DNA from: Hungatella sp. | GTDB lineage: Bacteria; Bacillota; Clostridia; Lachnospirales; Lachnospiraceae | Assembly: GCA_022792815.1 (NCBI GenBank) | Contig: JAAWBS010000027.1 | Coordinates: 1 to 64,000, forward strand | Length of the DNA stretch: 64,000 bases | Reading direction: 5' to 3' | Shown: positions 475 to 25,631 of the stretch, in pieces | Position numbering within the stretch: the stretch's first letter is position 1 | Layout: every line of letters starts with the position of its first letter | Translations under genes and position numbers: made by a program | The notes under the pieces: generated by a model | What the model saw: only the letters and a program-made list of their open reading frames with translations | What the model was told of the DNA's origin: nothing | Database searches by the model: none

Positions 475-1677
475 ACGATAAGCGTAGGAATTGATGTTTC
501 AAAAGAGAAAAGCACTGTCTGTATACTGAAACCATACGGAGAAATCGTGTGCAGTCCTTTTGGAATACAGCATGTGGAGAAAGATTTAGAAGGTTTCCAC
601 AACCTGCTGGAAAAATTGGATGGAGAGATACGAATTGTAATGGAGGCTGCTGGCATTTATCATCTGCCTGTTTTGACATTCCTTCATGATAAAGGATATT
701 TTGTATCTGTTATCAATCCGTTTGCAATGAAGAAATATGCGAAGGACAACAGCCTCAGAGGGGTAAAGACCGATAAACTTGATTCAAAGATGATTGCGAA
801 CTATGGAATCGAGAAATGGTTCAAGCTGCAGAGATATGAAGGTGATGAAGAAACCTACGCGGAGCTCAAGCTTCTTGGCCGCAGACATCGGTACTATATG
901 GAACTTCATGTGAAAGCCTTGCAGGAGTTGACATACATCCTGGATTATGTGATGCCGGGCATCAAGAAGATGTTTAACAGTTGGAATGAAGCAAACGGTA
1001 AGGACAAGCTCAGCGATTTTGTGGAGCGATTCCGGCACTTTGATCTGATCATGTCCATGGGTCTTGAAGAATTCACAGACGAATATCTTGTTTGGGCAAA
1101 GGAAAAGAAATACCACCGAAGCAGATCCAAGGCTGAAACAGTCTATGAATTAGCTTCAAGTGGCATTCCCACACTGTCTTCCAGTACTCCATCGACCAAA
1201 ATGTTAGTACAGGAAGCAATATCAGTATTGAGGGCCGTAGACGGCTCTCTGTCCCTGATTTTAACACAAATGCAGGTTCTTGCAAAGTCCCTGCCCGAAT
1301 ATTCAACAGTCAGAGAAATGGGAGGGGTTGGCGATGTCCTTGCAGTCAAGCTAATCGCAGAAATTGGCGATGTAAGAAGGCTGCACAGTGCAAAAGCACT
1401 CATAGCATGGGCTGGAATCGACCCGCCGCCATACGAGTCTGGGCAGTTTATTGGTTCAAAACGCAAGATAACGAAACGCGGTTCCTCAACGCTCAGGAAA
1501 GTCGGATATGAGGTGATGAGGGTTCTTAAGAGTCATCCTGCTCCGAAAGATGACGCTGTGTACAACTACATTTTGAAAAAGGAAAGAGAAGGTAAAAGTA
1601 AAAAACATGCAAAGATTGCCGGTTTGAATAAATTCCTGCGGATCTATTATGCAAGGGTAATGGCAGTTTATCAGTAG
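475..1677 (+). mobile_element. IS110-family transposase (DEDD/Tnp_IS110 recombinase)
   Basis: The protein is a DNA recombinase of the bridge-RNA-guided IS110 family. The N-terminal RuvC-like DEDD part has GIDVSK (catalytic Asp) near 487-504, MEAAGIYH and KTDKLDS. The C-terminal part has GIDPPPYESGQF and KRGSSTLRK, typical of Transposase_20. The first standard start in this frame is GTG 547, but it would remove the GIDVSK Asp. Homology and the AGGAGG at 463-468 place the true start at 475-477, six bases downstream, where the codon is ACG. A T-to-C change of the start ATG therefore probably cripples translation, or ACG is used as a weak start. From 475 the product is about 400 aa and otherwise intact. 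Confidence 0.85.
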
Positions 1678-2260: not shown

Positions 2261-2309
2261 GGTAAGCAGTCAGTCAACCGTGATTTTTAAATTCAGGGAG
2301 GAAATGCGT

Positions 2310-2501
2310 ATGTCAGATTTCGGTGATTCTATCGTTCGTGCAGCTGGGGCATCTACCGTAGCGGGAACCGTGGGAGCCAGTATCGGGGGCAGCGTCAGCG
2401 CCGTCTTCGGTCCTGCGTCAGTCGGCGGTGCGGCTATTGGCGGCCTGATCGGGTCCGTCGGCGGCTTCGTGGGTTCCCTGTGTTCGGACCTTTTCGGCTG
2501 A
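2310..2501 (+). CDS. Gly-rich hydrophobic peptide, unit 1 (63 aa, glycine-zipper-like)
   Basis: ATG 2310 is chosen because AGGGAGG lies eight bases upstream; GTG 2280 and ATG 2304 fit the ribosome site poorly. The product starts MSDFGDSIVRAAG and consists mostly of Gly/Ala/Ser/Val with repeated GxxxG-type spacing, ending GSLCSDLFG. This composition fits a membrane-inserting or self-associating peptide such as a bacteriocin-like or toxin-like peptide. No double-Gly leader of the usual class II type is clear. Function unknown. Confidence 0.7.
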   Translation: MSDFGDSIVRAAGASTVAGTVGASIGGSVSAVFGPASVGGAAIGGLIGSVGGFVGSLCSDLFG

Positions 2502-2769: not shown

Positions 2770-2818
2770 GGTAAGCAGTCAGTCAACCGTGATTCTTAAA
2801 TTCAGGGAGGAAATGCGT

Positions 2819-3010
2819 ATGTCAGATTTCGGTGATTCTATCGTTCGTGCAGCTGGGGCATCTACCGTAGCGGGAACCGTGGGAGCCAGCATCGGGGGCA
2901 GCGTCAGCGCCGTCCTCGGCCCTGCGGCAGCCGGCGGTGCGGCTGTTGGCGGCCTGATCGGGTCCGTCGTCGGCTTCGTGGGTTCCCTGTGCTCGGACCT
3001 TTTCGGCTGA
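2819..3010 (+). CDS. Gly-rich hydrophobic peptide, unit 2 (63 aa)
   Basis: Same start context as unit 1 (AGGGAGG then ATG 2819). The sequence differs from unit 1 at only a few hydrophobic or small residues, for example VLGPAAAGGAAVGG in place of VFGPASVGGAAIGG. The changes are conservative, as expected for a maintained small membrane-active peptide. Function unknown. Confidence 0.7.
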   Translation: MSDFGDSIVRAAGASTVAGTVGASIGGSVSAVLGPAAAGGAAVGGLIGSVVGFVGSLCSDLFG

Positions 3011-3423: not shown

Positions 3424-3560
3424 ACTCGTTTCTTCTTTCTAACCGTTTTGACTATATCATTAACGTCGTTTTCACGATACCCGACAGATTTTGCCCATTT
3501 TTGCGCTTCGTCCAATGAGGCTTCAAATCTGGAAGTATATGTCACCAGGGTGTCTATCAT
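3420..3560 (-). pseudogene. C-terminal fragment of the cognate antitoxin
   Basis: The frame encodes 46 residues including FEASLDEAQKWAKSVGY and ends with KTVRKKKRV. This is the toxin-binding tail of antitoxins that pair with PIN toxins in Clostridia. The N-terminal DNA-binding part is absent; the frame is cut near 3560, where Cas1 sequence begins on the other strand. Confidence 0.55.
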
Positions 3561-3794
3561 TGTGCATTAAACTATCTTTATGGGATTTTGTATGCTAAAA
3601 TTAAGAAAATGATGGATCAGTGCCGCCTGGATCCCTACATAGGAGTCATGCATGTGGATGCTTATAATAAGCCCGCCTTTGTCTTTGATTTCATGGAAGG
3701 GCAGAGGATTCTCTGCGAAGAGATCGCATACCAGGCCTGTCAGCAGGAAGCGCGCTGGATCCGGGAGCCGCAAAAACAGGAAAAAGGAGTTTGA
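3561..3794 (+). pseudogene. cas1: Internal fragment of Cas1
   Basis: The in-frame sequence reads ALNYLYGILYAKIKK, then LDPYIGVMHVDAYNKP and VFDFME. These are signature motifs around the catalytic His of the CRISPR integrase Cas1. About 70 residues of some 330 remain; the N-terminal domain and most of the C-terminus are gone, so it cannot integrate spacers. It sits directly before CARF-type genes and marks a former CRISPR-Cas locus. Confidence 0.75.
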
Positions 3795-3800
3795 TTTCAT

Positions 3801-4415
3801 ATGCGTCTGGCATTGACAGAACGAAGGAAAATGGAGTGCGACGGATATCTTTTCCCGTCAGATTATTATGACATCCCCGGGGTGGAGGAATTTCAGGATC
3901 TGGAGGCCGTGAGGGAATATGCCTGTGAAAAACTGAGCCCATACAGAGGGGAAGCCGTTGATCTCTACTTAAACGGCGGGCTGACCATAGAGACTCTGAC
4001 CGCGATTTGGGCGGCCCGTAAACTGGATATCTCTCTGGCTTTGTGGCATTATGATCGGGAAAAGGACCGCTATGTCCGTCAGGAACTGAAGTGGAGGCCG
4101 GCATCTGCCGGCACAGGGGCCAAGGAGGAGGCGGAGGCCATCTACCTGTGTAGGGGGCGCCACTGGGGATCGGAGGAGAACTGCATCTTTGATGCGATTC
4201 CCCAGGATAGGATATTTGATTTTCAGTGGCAGGAGGAGCGGGCAGAGGAGGTTTTGAGAGATTACAGCCATAAAAAGATCGCTGTTTATGTGTCGGGCCT
4301 TACTTCCGCCGCTGTCAGCGTCCTCAACGCTGCGGCGAAGGAGCAGGTCTCTGTCCTATGGATGCATCACGATTATGACAGGGAGGAATATTTTCCCCAG
4401 AGCATGGAGGAATAG
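3801..4415 (+). CDS. CRISPR-associated alpha/beta protein with two internal repeats (possible CARF or ring-nuclease type)
   Basis: 204 aa. Two stretches repeat one pattern: residues 51-96 (VDLYLNGGLTIETLTAI then LALWHYDREKDRY) and 157-202 (IAVYVSGLTSAAVSVL then VLWMHHDYDREEYFPQ). Each looks like beta-helix-beta with a (W/H)HxDR signature. Small Rossmann-like proteins near type III systems often bind or cleave cyclic oligoadenylate; that role here is inference from the neighbours. The gene ends in TAG, but the frame stays open through 17 more codons into the next gene's ATG. The start could also be ATG 3831. Confidence 0.55.
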   Translation: MRLALTERRKMECDGYLFPSDYYDIPGVEEFQDLEAVREYACEKLSPYRGEAVDLYLNGGLTIETLTAIWAARKLDISLALWHYDREKDRYVRQELKWRPASAGTGAKEEAEAIYLCRGRHWGSEENCIFDAIPQDRIFDFQWQEERAEEVLRDYSHKKIAVYVSGLTSAAVSVLNAAAKEQVSVLWMHHDYDREEYFPQSMEE

Positions 4416-4466
4416 CTGCCCTTTGCGGCTGCGGCACACCATAAACAGAGAAAGGCAGACCCGATC

Positions 4467-7154
4467 ATGGCAAAGAAAACATACGCGGCAGCGATCACAG
4501 AACCCACGAAGATCTTCTATGACCTGCTGTTTGACTATAATAATCTGAAATACATTTTCAAATACGGTTTTTACTGGGACGACCGTCTCACCGGCGCTCT
4601 CCTGTCAAAAAGCAGCCAGCGGGTGCGGGAGCTGGTCAACATCATCTCGGAGCCTGTGTATGGGAACAGCATCAGCACCCCCTGGAGCCTCCACGCCCCG
4701 GGAAGCGGGAAGAAGTCCGGACGGCTCCTCATAAAACAGAACCATTACCGGCTGGTGCAGAACCGGTGGTTTCAGGATCTGTGCGGCTGCTGCGGAGGAT
4801 TTCGCGACGACCTGATTCGGAGGCACATGGAGAACTGTGGGGAGGGGCCTTACAGTCTGTGCAGGGACGAGGAGGGAGGGAGCTGTACTTACCGGAGGCT
4901 GTGTATGTTCCGGGAGGAGAGGGAGACCTTTCTGGAACTGTTGGACGGGGTGGAGAAGAAGAGGCTCGGATTCTGGAAAGACAATCGGATTCACAGAGAG
5001 GTCCTGGACTGCTACGGGGATGTCATAGAAGAGAAGGCGGGCAAAGGCTCCATAGGTCTGAAGGAAAATATGTGGCGGGAGCTTTTTGATGACCCGGCCG
5101 GGGGGATAAAAAGTGGGCAAAAGAATGCCGAACGTGATCGGTTCCTTGACATGATCCGGTTTTTCTCGGGCTTCACCCCCCTGTCCGTACTGGGCGGAAA
5201 CTTTTTAAAAAGGCTGGATTGTGAGCCGGGACCGTCCTACATCATGGTCAGAAACCTGCCCGGGGACTTTGAGTTTGAGCAGGAATATCTGTATCGCTGT
5301 CTCTATGCCATGGATCAAAAGATGACGGTGATCCGCGAGGAGGAGGAGTATGTTCCTATAAGCCTGTTTTACAGAGATAAAGGCATGGCCGGGGTGGAGG
5401 AACATCTCTATCTGGAGGCAGTATCGTGGGCAGACGGCAGAGCGGATCCGGACCATGTGAGAGAACTGCCTCTTTTCGACGGAGTTCATGTGAGGACGGG
5501 GCGGAAGCGGAACATGGAGCCAACAGAGCCAATGGGGCGCCGGCAGCAGGAGACCAGGGATTTTCAGGTTCGGTTTTACTACAACAGCAATACGGAATAT
5601 CTGAAAAACAGAAGAGAGGAGATCTGGGGGACGTGTATTGTCCCGGGAAGCGTCAGGACTCTGGAGACGGAAAAGATCATGAGATCCCCCTATGATCCGG
5701 ACTCGGAAGTCTGGAAGACGGACCTGGTCACCTACCGCGTAAATAGTTGCGACATCCTAGGATTTCTCCTGTACATCCGGTCTTTCGGGGACTTTGCCTC
5801 CATGGTTTCTCCCGCAGAGCCGGTCGATGGGCATAAGACGGAGCCGGTCAGAAGGCAGAAAGGGCACATAAAAGAGCATGAGTCTCTTCTGAGCGTCTAC
5901 AATTCCGATGCTCTTATGGATGAAGTCAGGGACAGGATCAGGAAGGGGAGCGGCCGGCTTTTGCCTCCCCGCCGGACGGAGCTGGGGTGGCTGGACTTTA
6001 TTTTGAGGGAATATCCTCATTTCTGCAGTATTTTTCTGGAGCAGGAGAGCCTGGACAAGATCAGGGAGAAACTGAGAGAAGACTTCCCGGGCAGCAGCTG
6101 GTTTGACGGGAGCAGGTTTGACTTTCGCTGCCGGGTGAAGGACCTGGACAGGAGAGTCTGTTCCAAGTACAGGCGGATTCTTGATGCCATGTATCAGGGA
6201 CGGATTCTGCAGTATGAGTACAAAAGAGAGCAGGTCAGGATCCTTCCCTACGCCCTGGAATATGACGTGACGCGGCACCTGGCCGGGGGCAGCAGGGAGC
6301 CTATGGACGTCATGTGCTATCAGCTGGACGAGATGAGGACCGTCAACATCCCCTACAGCAGGATCGAGACCAGGACCGGCATCGCCAGGGCGGAGTACTC
6401 CTTTTCCAGACTGGAGAAACTGTACCATGTTCTGGCCTACGGCATCCGCTGCGGGACGGCGGGGAGGCAGACGATTGACGAGAGGGCGGAAAGACTTCTG
6501 GAGTGTATGTGGAAGACGGACAGCCGGGGCGGCGACAACTATAATCGCTGTATCCGGAAAAAACTGAAAAAGCCCAAAGACTTCCTTGCAGAGTACCGCC
6601 GGTTTCAGCAGCTGTGCGAAAACCAGGGCAGAGAGGAAGAGGCGGCATTTTTCCACAAAGTCTTTGATTACGTAAAAACCGTGGCCGGGGAGTCCCGGGA
6701 CGAATATGCCTATGAGGCCTTTCTGCTGTCCTGTTTTACCGACGGGTGCAGCCGGCTCTGGCAGCCCAGGAAAGGCCGGGAGGTGGAGGAAGCCCTGGAT
6801 GCCGTAGACGATGCCTGGGTCTGGGAGCTGCTCATGGGGGACCCGGTGGACGGAGTGCTGAGCGAGATCGCATTCTATAACGAGAATCTGAAAAACGCCG
6901 TTGTCTCATTTGTCCTGCGGGACGACGGCGAGGAGGCGGTGGAAAGAGTTTATGATGTCTTTCGGAATTTCATCTGTGCAGGGGAGAAGACCGGGGACGG
7001 CAGGCTGCGTTTCACGGTGTCTTATGAGAAATTTTTTTACAGGAAGATTCACATGGCCCTTATGGCCCTGGATGATCTTGTGGAGGAGCTGGAGCCGGAA
7101 GAGGTGGCCCGCGTCATCTGCAAAAGAAGAGAAAATAAAAGGGAACACACATGA
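4467..7154 (+). CDS. Large WYL-like protein (895 aa) of a type III CRISPR ancillary cluster
   Basis: No close family is recalled, but parts are legible. Residues 35-100 look like a winged-helix segment. Residues 106-146 hold seven Cys, a possible zinc site. Residues 270-345 then 366-450 resemble a WYL domain with its C-terminal extension. Residues 568-640 (ILDAMYQGRILQYEYK, later VRILPYALEY and NIPYSRIE) form a second WYL-like module. The C-terminal 250 residues are mostly helical. WYL domains sense ligands or nucleic acid and regulate several CRISPR systems. The stop overlaps the csm6 start (ATGA), so the two are co-translated. Confidence 0.6.
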   Translation: MAKKTYAAAITEPTKIFYDLLFDYNNLKYIFKYGFYWDDRLTGALLSKSSQRVRELVNIISEPVYGNSISTPWSLHAPGSGKKSGRLLIKQNHYRLVQNRWFQDLCGCCGGFRDDLIRRHMENCGEGPYSLCRDEEGGSCTYRRLCMFREERETFLELLDGVEKKRLGFWKDNRIHREVLDCYGDVIEEKAGKGSIGLKENMWRELFDDPAGGIKSGQKNAERDRFLDMIRFFSGFTPLSVLGGNFLKRLDCEPGPSYIMVRNLPGDFEFEQEYLYRCLYAMDQKMTVIREEEEYVPISLFYRDKGMAGVEEHLYLEAVSWADGRADPDHVRELPLFDGVHVRTGRKRNMEPTEPMGRRQQETRDFQVRFYYNSNTEYLKNRREEIWGTCIVPGSVRTLETEKIMRSPYDPDSEVWKTDLVTYRVNSCDILGFLLYIRSFGDFASMVSPAEPVDGHKTEPVRRQKGHIKEHESLLSVYNSDALMDEVRDRIRKGSGRLLPPRRTELGWLDFILREYPHFCSIFLEQESLDKIREKLREDFPGSSWFDGSRFDFRCRVKDLDRRVCSKYRRILDAMYQGRILQYEYKREQVRILPYALEYDVTRHLAGGSREPMDVMCYQLDEMRTVNIPYSRIETRTGIARAEYSFSRLEKLYHVLAYGIRCGTAGRQTIDERAERLLECMWKTDSRGGDNYNRCIRKKLKKPKDFLAEYRRFQQLCENQGREEEAAFFHKVFDYVKTVAGESRDEYAYEAFLLSCFTDGCSRLWQPRKGREVEEALDAVDDAWVWELLMGDPVDGVLSEIAFYNENLKNAVVSFVLRDDGEEAVERVYDVFRNFICAGEKTGDGRLRFTVSYEKFFYRKIHMALMALDDLVEELEPEEVARVICKRRENKREHT

Positions 7155-8527
7155 GAGAGCGTATTTTATTAACCGTAGTGGGAAAGACAGATCCCATAAG
7201 AGGAGAGCACGACGGCCCTATCCTCCATATTATCCGCCATTACAGGCCAAAGAAGGCCATCCTTCTGCTGTCCGAGGAGGTTGCAGGGGAGGAGGATGAA
7301 TACCATCACAACAGGGAGGCCATCGGTCTGCTGGATCCGGACTGCCAGGTGGAGACCGTCCATACGGGAATCCAGGACGTCCACAGCTACGATGCCTTTG
7401 CCTTGACCCTTCTGTCTGTCTGCAGCCGGATCCGGGAACTGCATCCGGAAAAAGAGATTCTGATCAACATCACCTCGGGAACCCCTCAGCTGGAGACGGC
7501 GCTGTGCATGATCGCCATAGCCGACCCGGAACACTATACGGCGATCCAGGTGGTCTCCCCGGAGCGGTCTGCCAACAAGGCTCCCATGTTTAACCCGAAA
7601 AGGGATCTCATCGAGGAATGGTTTGAGACGGATGTGGACAATGAGGAGGGAAGCCCTTCCCGGTGTCATGCTCCCCGGCTCCTGAATTTTAAGAGACCTA
7701 TGGTACAGTTTCAGATTCAGTCCCTCATTGAGAATTATGATTATTCCGGCGCGCTGCTCTTATATCAGGAGAACCGGGAGAACTTTTCCGAGAGGACGGG
7801 CCTTCTCCTGGAGCACGCCAGGAGACGACTGAACCTGGAGCACAAGGAGGCGGAGCAGACGGCGGTGAAACTGGACATGAAGGAGGAGCTTTATCCTATC
7901 CGGCGGTCTGACATCGCACAGCTGACAGAATTTTACAACAGTATGCGCATCAAACAGGTCAGAGGCGAGCTCAACGATTTTTCCATGCGCTTAGAGATCA
8001 TGACGCTGTACACAGGCCGGTATCTGATGGAGAAATGCATGAGGGTGCGGCTGGAGGATGTAACCGTGGGAAGAAGTCTGAAAAATTCCCACATCATGTA
8101 TCTGGACAGAGACAAATGTACCGGGAAGATCCCGGGGATCCAGGGATATCTGGATGAGCGGTTTTCGGACAAGAAGTCGGGAAGATTTGAGTGGGGCAAG
8201 CCGGTGAACGCCCTCTCCATCGTCCACATCGTGAAGTTTTTGAGCACTCAGCCGGGCAATGAAAAGTACCGGCAGGCTGCGGACGAGATGATCCGGTGGG
8301 CGGCTCTGTCCGGCCAGGTGAGAAATCCGGCGGCCCACACCATCGTGGCCATCACGGATGAGATCATCAGGGAGTCTTATGACAATAAGGATTCGGCGGC
8401 TCTGGTGAAGTCTATCTATACGGTTCTGAGACAGGCTTTCGGGAGTCAGTGGAAGGAGGAGGCCTTTGAGATCTACGGGCGGATCAATGTTTTGATTAAG
8501 CAGGCCATGGAGAACAGCGATGGATGA
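7151..8527 (+). CDS. csm6: Csm6-type CARF-HEPN ribonuclease
   Basis: 458 aa. The N-terminal CARF domain has VGKTDPIRG, a Rossmann-like pattern and the ligand-loop motif TSGTPQLE at 108-115. The C-terminal HEPN domain carries RNPAAH (391-396), the catalytic RxxxxH. In type III-A systems Csm6 is switched on by cyclic oligoadenylate made by Cas10 and degrades RNA. Both key motifs are intact. ATG 7151 overlaps the preceding stop by four bases. No Cas10 gene is in the window, so its activator must come from elsewhere in the cell, or the protein is orphaned. Confidence 0.8.
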   Translation: MRERILLTVVGKTDPIRGEHDGPILHIIRHYRPKKAILLLSEEVAGEEDEYHHNREAIGLLDPDCQVETVHTGIQDVHSYDAFALTLLSVCSRIRELHPEKEILINITSGTPQLETALCMIAIADPEHYTAIQVVSPERSANKAPMFNPKRDLIEEWFETDVDNEEGSPSRCHAPRLLNFKRPMVQFQIQSLIENYDYSGALLLYQENRENFSERTGLLLEHARRRLNLEHKEAEQTAVKLDMKEELYPIRRSDIAQLTEFYNSMRIKQVRGELNDFSMRLEIMTLYTGRYLMEKCMRVRLEDVTVGRSLKNSHIMYLDRDKCTGKIPGIQGYLDERFSDKKSGRFEWGKPVNALSIVHIVKFLSTQPGNEKYRQAADEMIRWAALSGQVRNPAAHTIVAITDEIIRESYDNKDSAALVKSIYTVLRQAFGSQWKEEAFEIYGRINVLIKQAMENSDG

Positions 8528-25243: not shown

Positions 25244-25316
25244 GCGCCTTTAGCTCAGTTGGTAGAGCAGTAGACTCTTAATCTATTTGTCCAGGGTTCG
25301 AGTCCCTGAAGGCGCA
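25244..25316 (+). tRNA. tRNA-Lys (CTT), copy 1
   Basis: 73 bases. Acceptor GCGCCTT/AAGGCGC, D arm GCTC/GAGC, anticodon stem GTAGA/TCTAT with loop CTCTTAA (anticodon CTT), T arm CAGGG/CCCTG with TTCGAGT. The CCA end is not encoded. Identical to the copy at 25559. Confidence 0.95.
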
Positions 25317-25558: not shown

Positions 25559-25631
25559 GCGCCTTTAGCTCAGTTGGTAGAGCAGTAGACTCTTAATCTA
25601 TTTGTCCAGGGTTCGAGTCCCTGAAGGCGCA
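25559..25631 (+). tRNA. tRNA-Lys (CTT), copy 2
   Basis: Same 73-base cloverleaf as 25244-25316, anticodon CTT. Flanking sequences differ between the copies, so only the gene itself is repeated. Confidence 0.95.

Follow-up and report, generated by a model that had tools for sequence, protein, structure and literature searches.

A Csm6 signalling cluster of Hungatella sp. is probably one half of a III-A-like CRISPR locus and encodes a SAVED-fold protein with apparent relatives in phages

Csm6 is a ribonuclease switched on by cyclic oligoadenylate, and Cas10 (Csm1) makes this messenger once the CRISPR RNA complex binds its target RNA. A csm6 gene with no cas10 beside it raises the question of whether it belongs to a true orphan system or to a locus whose other half lies elsewhere. 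The case considered here comes from a draft genome of Hungatella sp. (GCA_022792815.1; 73 contigs, 89% complete, 1.3% contamination), in a stretch of 64,000 nucleotides (hereafter the window) that is bases 1-64000 of contig C34 (JAAWBS010000027.1) and therefore starts at a contig end. A cas1 fragment is followed there, on the forward strand like all other features of the cluster, by genes for a 204-amino-acid (204-aa) two-lobed protein, an 895-aa WYL-domain protein and Csm6, and a first-pass annotation made from the sequence alone had described an orphan type III ancillary cluster without Cas10. Our searches covered PADLOC, Pfam, NCBIfam, PHROGs, PDB sequences, Foldseek, IMG/VR and the GTDB species collection. 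Window and assembly together produced the orphan reading as an artefact: this draft genome encodes Csm1 on another contig, C23. Half a CRISPR locus can pass for a new orphan system when a contig break cuts it off. We consider it probable that the cluster supplies the ancillary signalling genes of a III-A-like locus whose other half, with cas6, csm1-4 and the array, is detached from it in the assembly and may be so in the genome too, and that it has lost acquisition. With the orphan reading set aside, the cluster stands as part of a rare III-A-like variant marked by a SAVED-WYL gene pair.

The single Csm1 match in the genome (C23:42065-44224) scores 478.7 bits against a cut-off of 170 and is surrounded by cas6, csm2, csm3 and csm4, and C23 ends 3.5 kb past csm1. 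An array adjoins csm4; it comprises five repeats, with at most 5 mismatches to the repeat of a related genome, G445, plus one degenerate copy, and stops about 0.8 kb short of the contig end. The set that marks a type III-A locus, csm1-csm4 with cas6 and an array, is thus present, on another contig of the same draft genome. The repeat is confined to the C23 array (a 17-base match on C57, E 1.7, is noise), and the window holds 0 copies of it at up to 3 mismatches and 0 copies of the G445 repeat at up to 9; the earlier statement that there is no array holds for the window only, not for the genome. In the Csm1 proteins of C23 and G445 the HD motif is degenerate (LMNIGRF and LVNIGRF, respectively, stand in its place) and SGGDD is kept, which is consistent with systems that work mainly by signalling. 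The first-pass annotation had allowed that cyclic oligoadenylate might be supplied from outside the cluster, and Csm1 on C23, with its SGGDD intact, bears this out.

Do related clusters keep the two halves together? Among 61 genomes (our own and 60 relatives), the 895-aa protein was present in two, our own and G006, and a scan of the GTDB species collection, which recovers only loci matching one of two 7-residue patterns, gave two loci, in G006 and G445. The order in G006 is contiguous: a gene for a 204-aa-like protein, one for a 912-aa protein, cas6, csm1, csm2, csm3, csm4, csm5, an array and cas1, with no csm6 in the part of the contig that was read (14000-37301). Upstream of this SAVED-WYL-cas series lies a pair of open reading frames (ORFs), one nuclease-like and one SMC-like (L005 5408-8906), which resembles SbcD and SbcC by reading only. 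In G445 the contig of the cluster begins inside an array and continues with an intact cas1, a cas2-like ORF, a small glycine-rich ORF, genes for 205-aa and 894-aa proteins, and csm6; its csm1 lies on a different contig that also ends inside an array. The six full repeats on the two G445 contigs do not differ from one another; a seventh copy, adjoining cas1, departs from them at 3 positions. Identity between G445 and our genome is 68-82% for Csm1-4 (on C23) and 72% for Csm6 (in the window). The association of the cluster with III-A genes, contiguous in G006 and through the array in G445, points to the ancillary half of a III-A-like locus, and it speaks against the separate defence module that had also been proposed. 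The first-pass annotation held that it would be refuted if every homologous cluster sat beside a complete type III locus and inactivating changes were seen here; half of this applies, since the homologous clusters that we found accompany a type III locus, but the inactivation seen here is confined to cas1 and the cas2 region and spares the ancillary genes. In our own genus, Csm1 matches occur in 4 of 26 genomes (own included), 3 of them above the cut-off, and one, G013, has csm1-5 followed by a divergent Csm6 (L043 13750-15057; 26% identity), with neither a SAVED nor a WYL gene in the stretch read.

On C23 the csm operon and the array point to the contig end, and on C34 the cluster points away from the contig start, an arrangement in keeping with one locus that an insertion and a contig break have split. 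Several points weigh against joining the halves in this manner. No similarity links the terminal part of C23 to the window's first 9 kb, and no joining sequence was found between them; physical linkage is therefore seen in relatives only, our genome offering fitting orientation and contig ends with no overlapping sequence. With 89% completeness and 1.3% contamination, C23 could in principle be foreign, and the search for protospacers gave none that was convincing. Moreover, no csm5 was found in our 89% complete assembly, where the one sub-threshold cross-match (E 0.0025) falls inside csm3, and the complex may be abnormal for this reason. As csm5 was likewise not seen beside the csm operon of G445 in the part read, we call the system a III-A-like variant. 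The operons of C23 (L004 10054-14570) and G445 (L026) are accordingly III-A-like in two genomes, with no recognisable csm5 after csm4. Compared with known III-A loci that carry csm6, the likeness lies in csm1-csm4, cas6, array, cas1 and csm6 in the relatives and in the Csm6 equivalog, and the differences lie in a locus spread over two contigs, the degenerate HD motif of Csm1, the missing csm5 and the extra SAVED-fold and WYL genes.

If the locus is broken, its remaining genes might simply be on the way out, and the region upstream of them gives this view its substance. The cas1 remnant (3551..3794; ORF 3588-3794), which the first pass had recognised as a fragment, lacks its 5' and 3' parts and matches Pfam Cas_Cas1 at 3588-3794 with 38.3 bits (E 1.1e-9) over profile positions 199-253 of 283; it is the only cas1 match in the genome. 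Window positions 3551-3733 share 80.9% DNA identity with L017 944-1126, inside the intact cas1 of G445, and the match restarts at 3779, just ahead of the SAVED gene. Between the two matching segments G445 has about 900 bases without a DNA counterpart at this place in the window; they take in the end of cas1, the cas2-like ORF and the small ORF. The small-ORF region is found instead in two copies further upstream, downstream of an IS110-family transposase gene (547..1677; NF033542, 174.6 bits) that lies between the contig start and the cluster and is a candidate cause of the rearrangement. The two copies encode glycine-rich 73-aa products (2280..2501 and 2789..3010) within a 300-bp direct repeat of 86% identity, and copy 1 matches L017 1742-1978 at the DNA level. 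The G445 counterpart, at about L017 1742-1978, stands between the cas2-like ORF and the SAVED gene, and no convincing Pfam family was found for this ORF. With cas1 reduced to a fragment and the cas2 region missing, spacer acquisition appears from the sequence to have been lost.

We nevertheless regard a relic in general decay as unlikely. The truncated cas1, the missing cas2 region, the adjacent IS110 element with its duplicated fragments, and the failure to find another cas1 or any csm5 in the genome all suit it, but the SAVED, WYL and csm6 genes have full-length frames uninterrupted by stops, the motifs of Csm6 are intact, and differences at the third codon position exceed those at the first and second in all three genes. 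The excess also holds on the window's own branch, where changes unique to this lineage at positions 1, 2 and 3 number 21, 20 and 35 in SAVED and 88, 76 and 149 in WYL, the two genes for which three sequences allowed this comparison. Open frames together with the third-position excess suggest that the signalling genes have been kept while acquisition was lost. In addition, G445 has an intact cas1 and yet no csm5 was seen next to its csm operon, so the absence of csm5 from our genome need not mean decay.

What would the retained genes do? The csm6 gene (7151..8527), called intact in the first pass, encodes a CARF-6H-HEPN ribonuclease that matches TIGR02672 with 329 bits (cut-off 150), has the Pfam CARF, 6H and HEPN domains plus R-x4-H, and carries TSGTPQ (7472-7489) and RNPAAH (8321-8338). 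Its ORF overlaps the 895-aa ORF by 4 bases, as the overlapping ORFs noted earlier had indicated. The closest solved sequence is chain 6tug_A (120 bits), titled Enterococcus italicus Csm6, an enzyme described as degrading its cognate cyclic hexa-AMP (PMC7101355; this and the papers below are cited from excerpts), which makes cyclic hexa-adenylate (cA6) the likeliest ligand. In the mechanism that we propose, binding of target RNA by the Csm complex would lead Csm1 to synthesise cyclic oligoadenylate, most likely cA6, which would activate Csm6; the 204-aa protein would bind the same messenger between head-to-tail stacked copies and might cleave it, with His121, the motif-I histidine in lobe 2, as the catalytic residue, serving as an off-switch, and the WYL protein would regulate the locus or a host response.

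The 204-aa protein (3801..4415) deserves particular attention, as a candidate ring nuclease standing two genes from a Csm6. The first pass made a good observation in calling it a repeated alpha/beta protein, for the ORF has two similar halves, and in its predicted model these form two fused CARF-like lobes in the SAVED arrangement, making it a putative stand-alone SAVED-fold receptor or ring nuclease for cyclic oligoadenylate. The best Foldseek fold matches are SAVED domains of Cap4 and Cap5, effectors of the cyclic-oligonucleotide-based antiphage signalling system (CBASS). This is the one trait that would suit a true stand-alone module fed by another nucleotide cyclase, as in CBASS, which we hold to be very improbable given a Cas10 in the same genome, relatives that lie with type III-A genes and no match to PF18145 in our own genome, where no search aimed at a CBASS cyclase was made. 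The SAVED assignment itself has to be weighed against a number of results: it is a predicted fold from three sequences; the Foldseek TM-scores are moderate (0.41-0.55 by query length, root-mean-square deviation (rmsd) 7-10, ranks 1-19); hhalign against five PF18145 members found nothing (probability 0.3%); Pfam, PF18145 included, gave no match and the PDB sequence search no SAVED protein; and invariant residues are not significantly enriched at the four predicted ligand loops (12/18 versus 85/186, P = 0.14).

The case for catalysis comes from lobe 2. Its GRH motif (4155..4163, aa 119-121, with His121 as the candidate catalytic residue) lies in the loop after the predicted strand E112-117, the first of the lobe, and an SGLT motif (4293..4304, aa 165-168) follows further on. 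G, R and H are invariant in 18/18 members of a phage family described below (alignment A9) and in 3/3 host proteins. Lobe 1 has ERR where lobe 2 has GRH, and a combined profile holding lobe 2 without lobe 1 also matches lobe 1 (E 8.7e-8), in the region that lies past the position of GRH. An invariant GRH after the first strand makes catalysis, or at least messenger binding, plausible, and within the proposed mechanism we put the chance that the protein is a ring nuclease at about even. The nearest precedents differ from it in instructive ways. AcrIII-2/Crn5 is a viral stand-alone SAVED ring nuclease (PDB 9r8s) that needs R96, K99 and H128 and cleaves cyclic tetra-adenylate (cA4) between stacked subunits; it is near CalpL in sequence, with 53% identity to one CalpL (excerpt of PMC12751052), whereas the 204-aa protein lies beside CRISPR genes and matches no SAVED profile. 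Csx15 is a one-lobe member of the CARF/SAVED superfamily whose dimer superposes on the AcrIII-2 SAVED monomer and whose catalytic histidine, in the loop after strand 1, coincides with AcrIII-2 H128; unlike the 204-aa protein, whose relatives include phage proteins, it is, according to the excerpt of PMC13148439, not observed in phage genomes, and its conserved R116, R120 and R123 have no counterpart seen here, the comparison being by description only. Crn4 is a small ring nuclease of cells, phages and plasmids that also degrades cA6 and is reported beside a Csm6-2 effector (excerpt of PMC12830947); the 204-aa protein is set apart from it, by description, through its Gly-Arg-His motif and SAVED-like model. 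In our searches of open-licence PMC, no paper came up on a stand-alone SAVED protein encoded in a cellular genome next to WYL and Csm6.

A sensor rather than an enzyme would also account for the gene order, the messenger-bound SAVED-fold protein controlling the adjacent WYL protein in a transcriptional branch whose logic would be comparable to that of CalpL-CalpT-CalpS. The WYL gene comes directly after the two-lobed SAVED gene in 3/3 loci whose surroundings were read, with csm6 following in only 2/3, and PADLOC lists WYL as associated signalling. The 895-aa protein (4467..7154), rightly called WYL-like in the first pass, matches the PADLOC WYL profile at residues 565-714 (E 6.8e-6) and has a WCX-like C-terminal region; the PADLOC profile matches 3/4 members of the family, and Pfam WYL gives no match in the 895-aa protein. 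We consider it a likely regulator. Against the sensor, however, stand the retained motif-I histidine, which suits catalysis, and the WYL protein itself, in which Pfam and NCBIfam recognise no helix-turn-helix or other DNA-binding domain and whose predicted model is poor (predicted local distance difference test, pLDDT, 36). A profile search with the 895-aa protein in 397 genomes of the family returned our own and three weak matches (G096, G119 and G251), and G096 provides a further point against, as a more distant 1018-aa WYL protein lies there directly before cas6-csm1-5-cas1, and the stretch read contains no SAVED gene. On balance we see the non-cleaving sensor as possible but somewhat doubtful. 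The G096 relative also matches WCX (E 3.6e-4), below Pfam's cut-off, and the 895-aa family aligns with a 314-aa WCX-like protein of G119 over 84 C-terminal columns (hhalign 92%). G119 is alike in this WCX-type end and unlike in encoding WYL and WCX by distinct genes, which lie next to RtcB and a DUF7788/DUF2828 protein (L028 6747-11926), an arrangement like an RNA-repair operon; no cas gene was detected nearby by tblastn.

From where might a CRISPR locus have obtained such a SAVED-fold protein? In the viral structure library, its best match is a 132-aa phage protein that covers one lobe (97 columns, rmsd 2.7, 31% identity). A second, the 386-aa phage protein A0A8S5UFB0 of BFVD, named helix-turn-helix, aligns over 195 columns (E 1.8e-6) but with an overall rmsd of 17.6; judging from its model it could possibly be a messenger-binding regulator. 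When the 204-aa protein was run with tblastn, 5 Fusobacterium phage records matched weakly over one lobe (E 0.04 to 0.4). A profile search across the class (391 genomes) hit our own genome and, in G759, a one-lobe protein (E 7e-11); the remaining genes on that G759 contig are phage-like by reading. A three-sequence profile of these one-lobe matches retrieved 20 loci in IMG/VR; GRH and TGLT, the counterpart of the host SGLT, both occur in 19/20 of the proteins, and the exception, beginning 34 bases from the edge of its contig, is probably truncated. Alignment A9 retains 18/23 sequences, some with shortened starts, leaving out L045 (the same phage as L054), the near-duplicates L057 and L063, and L064 and L065; its invariant residues are G8, R9, H10, Y48, T50, G51, L52 and T53 in the numbering of the first member. 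Against lobe 2 of the CRISPR protein A9 reaches 98.8% probability (E 5.5e-17) and the first three-sequence profile 97.6%; the PF18145 set reached 2%. Nothing convincing was found for the phage family in Pfam, PHROGs, PADLOC, NCBIfam or PDB sequences, and these profile comparisons indicate that the CRISPR-linked protein and an unnamed phage protein family share an ancestor, a relation that is new.

From this common ancestry follows a prediction that can be tested: phages may possess a new kind of counter-defence. Tentatively, and at rather less than even chances, we suggest that the phage proteins, mostly of 100-150 aa with the pattern GRH...TGLT...HYDRD...Q, are single-lobe SAVED/CARF-type messenger binders or ring nucleases acting as anti-CRISPRs against type III signalling, possibly by cA6; III-A loci would have captured one, duplicated it and fused the copies into an active GRH lobe and a degenerate ERR lobe, and the product, set beside a WYL regulator and Csm6, would serve there as off-switch or sensor. 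On each of two phage contigs the gene occurs as a neighbouring pair (L047 3338-4100 and L048 4001-4741) whose second copy has GQN in place of GRH; such a pair may be a two-gene counterpart of the fused host protein, and the GQN copy parallels lobe 1 of the host, where ERR likewise replaces GRH. A place near integrase and repressor genes is a usual one for accessory genes of prophages, and a member in G1025 (L069 8773-9150; GRHELP, ITGLT) adjoins integrase-like and repressor-like genes, as in a prophage. Matching genomes are rare, our own included: 1/397 in the family (A3), 2/391 in the class (A3) and 2/398 in the phylum (A10).

Far from the cluster, the window also holds a closely spaced pair of tRNA-Lys(CTT) genes, at 25244-25316 and 25559-25631.
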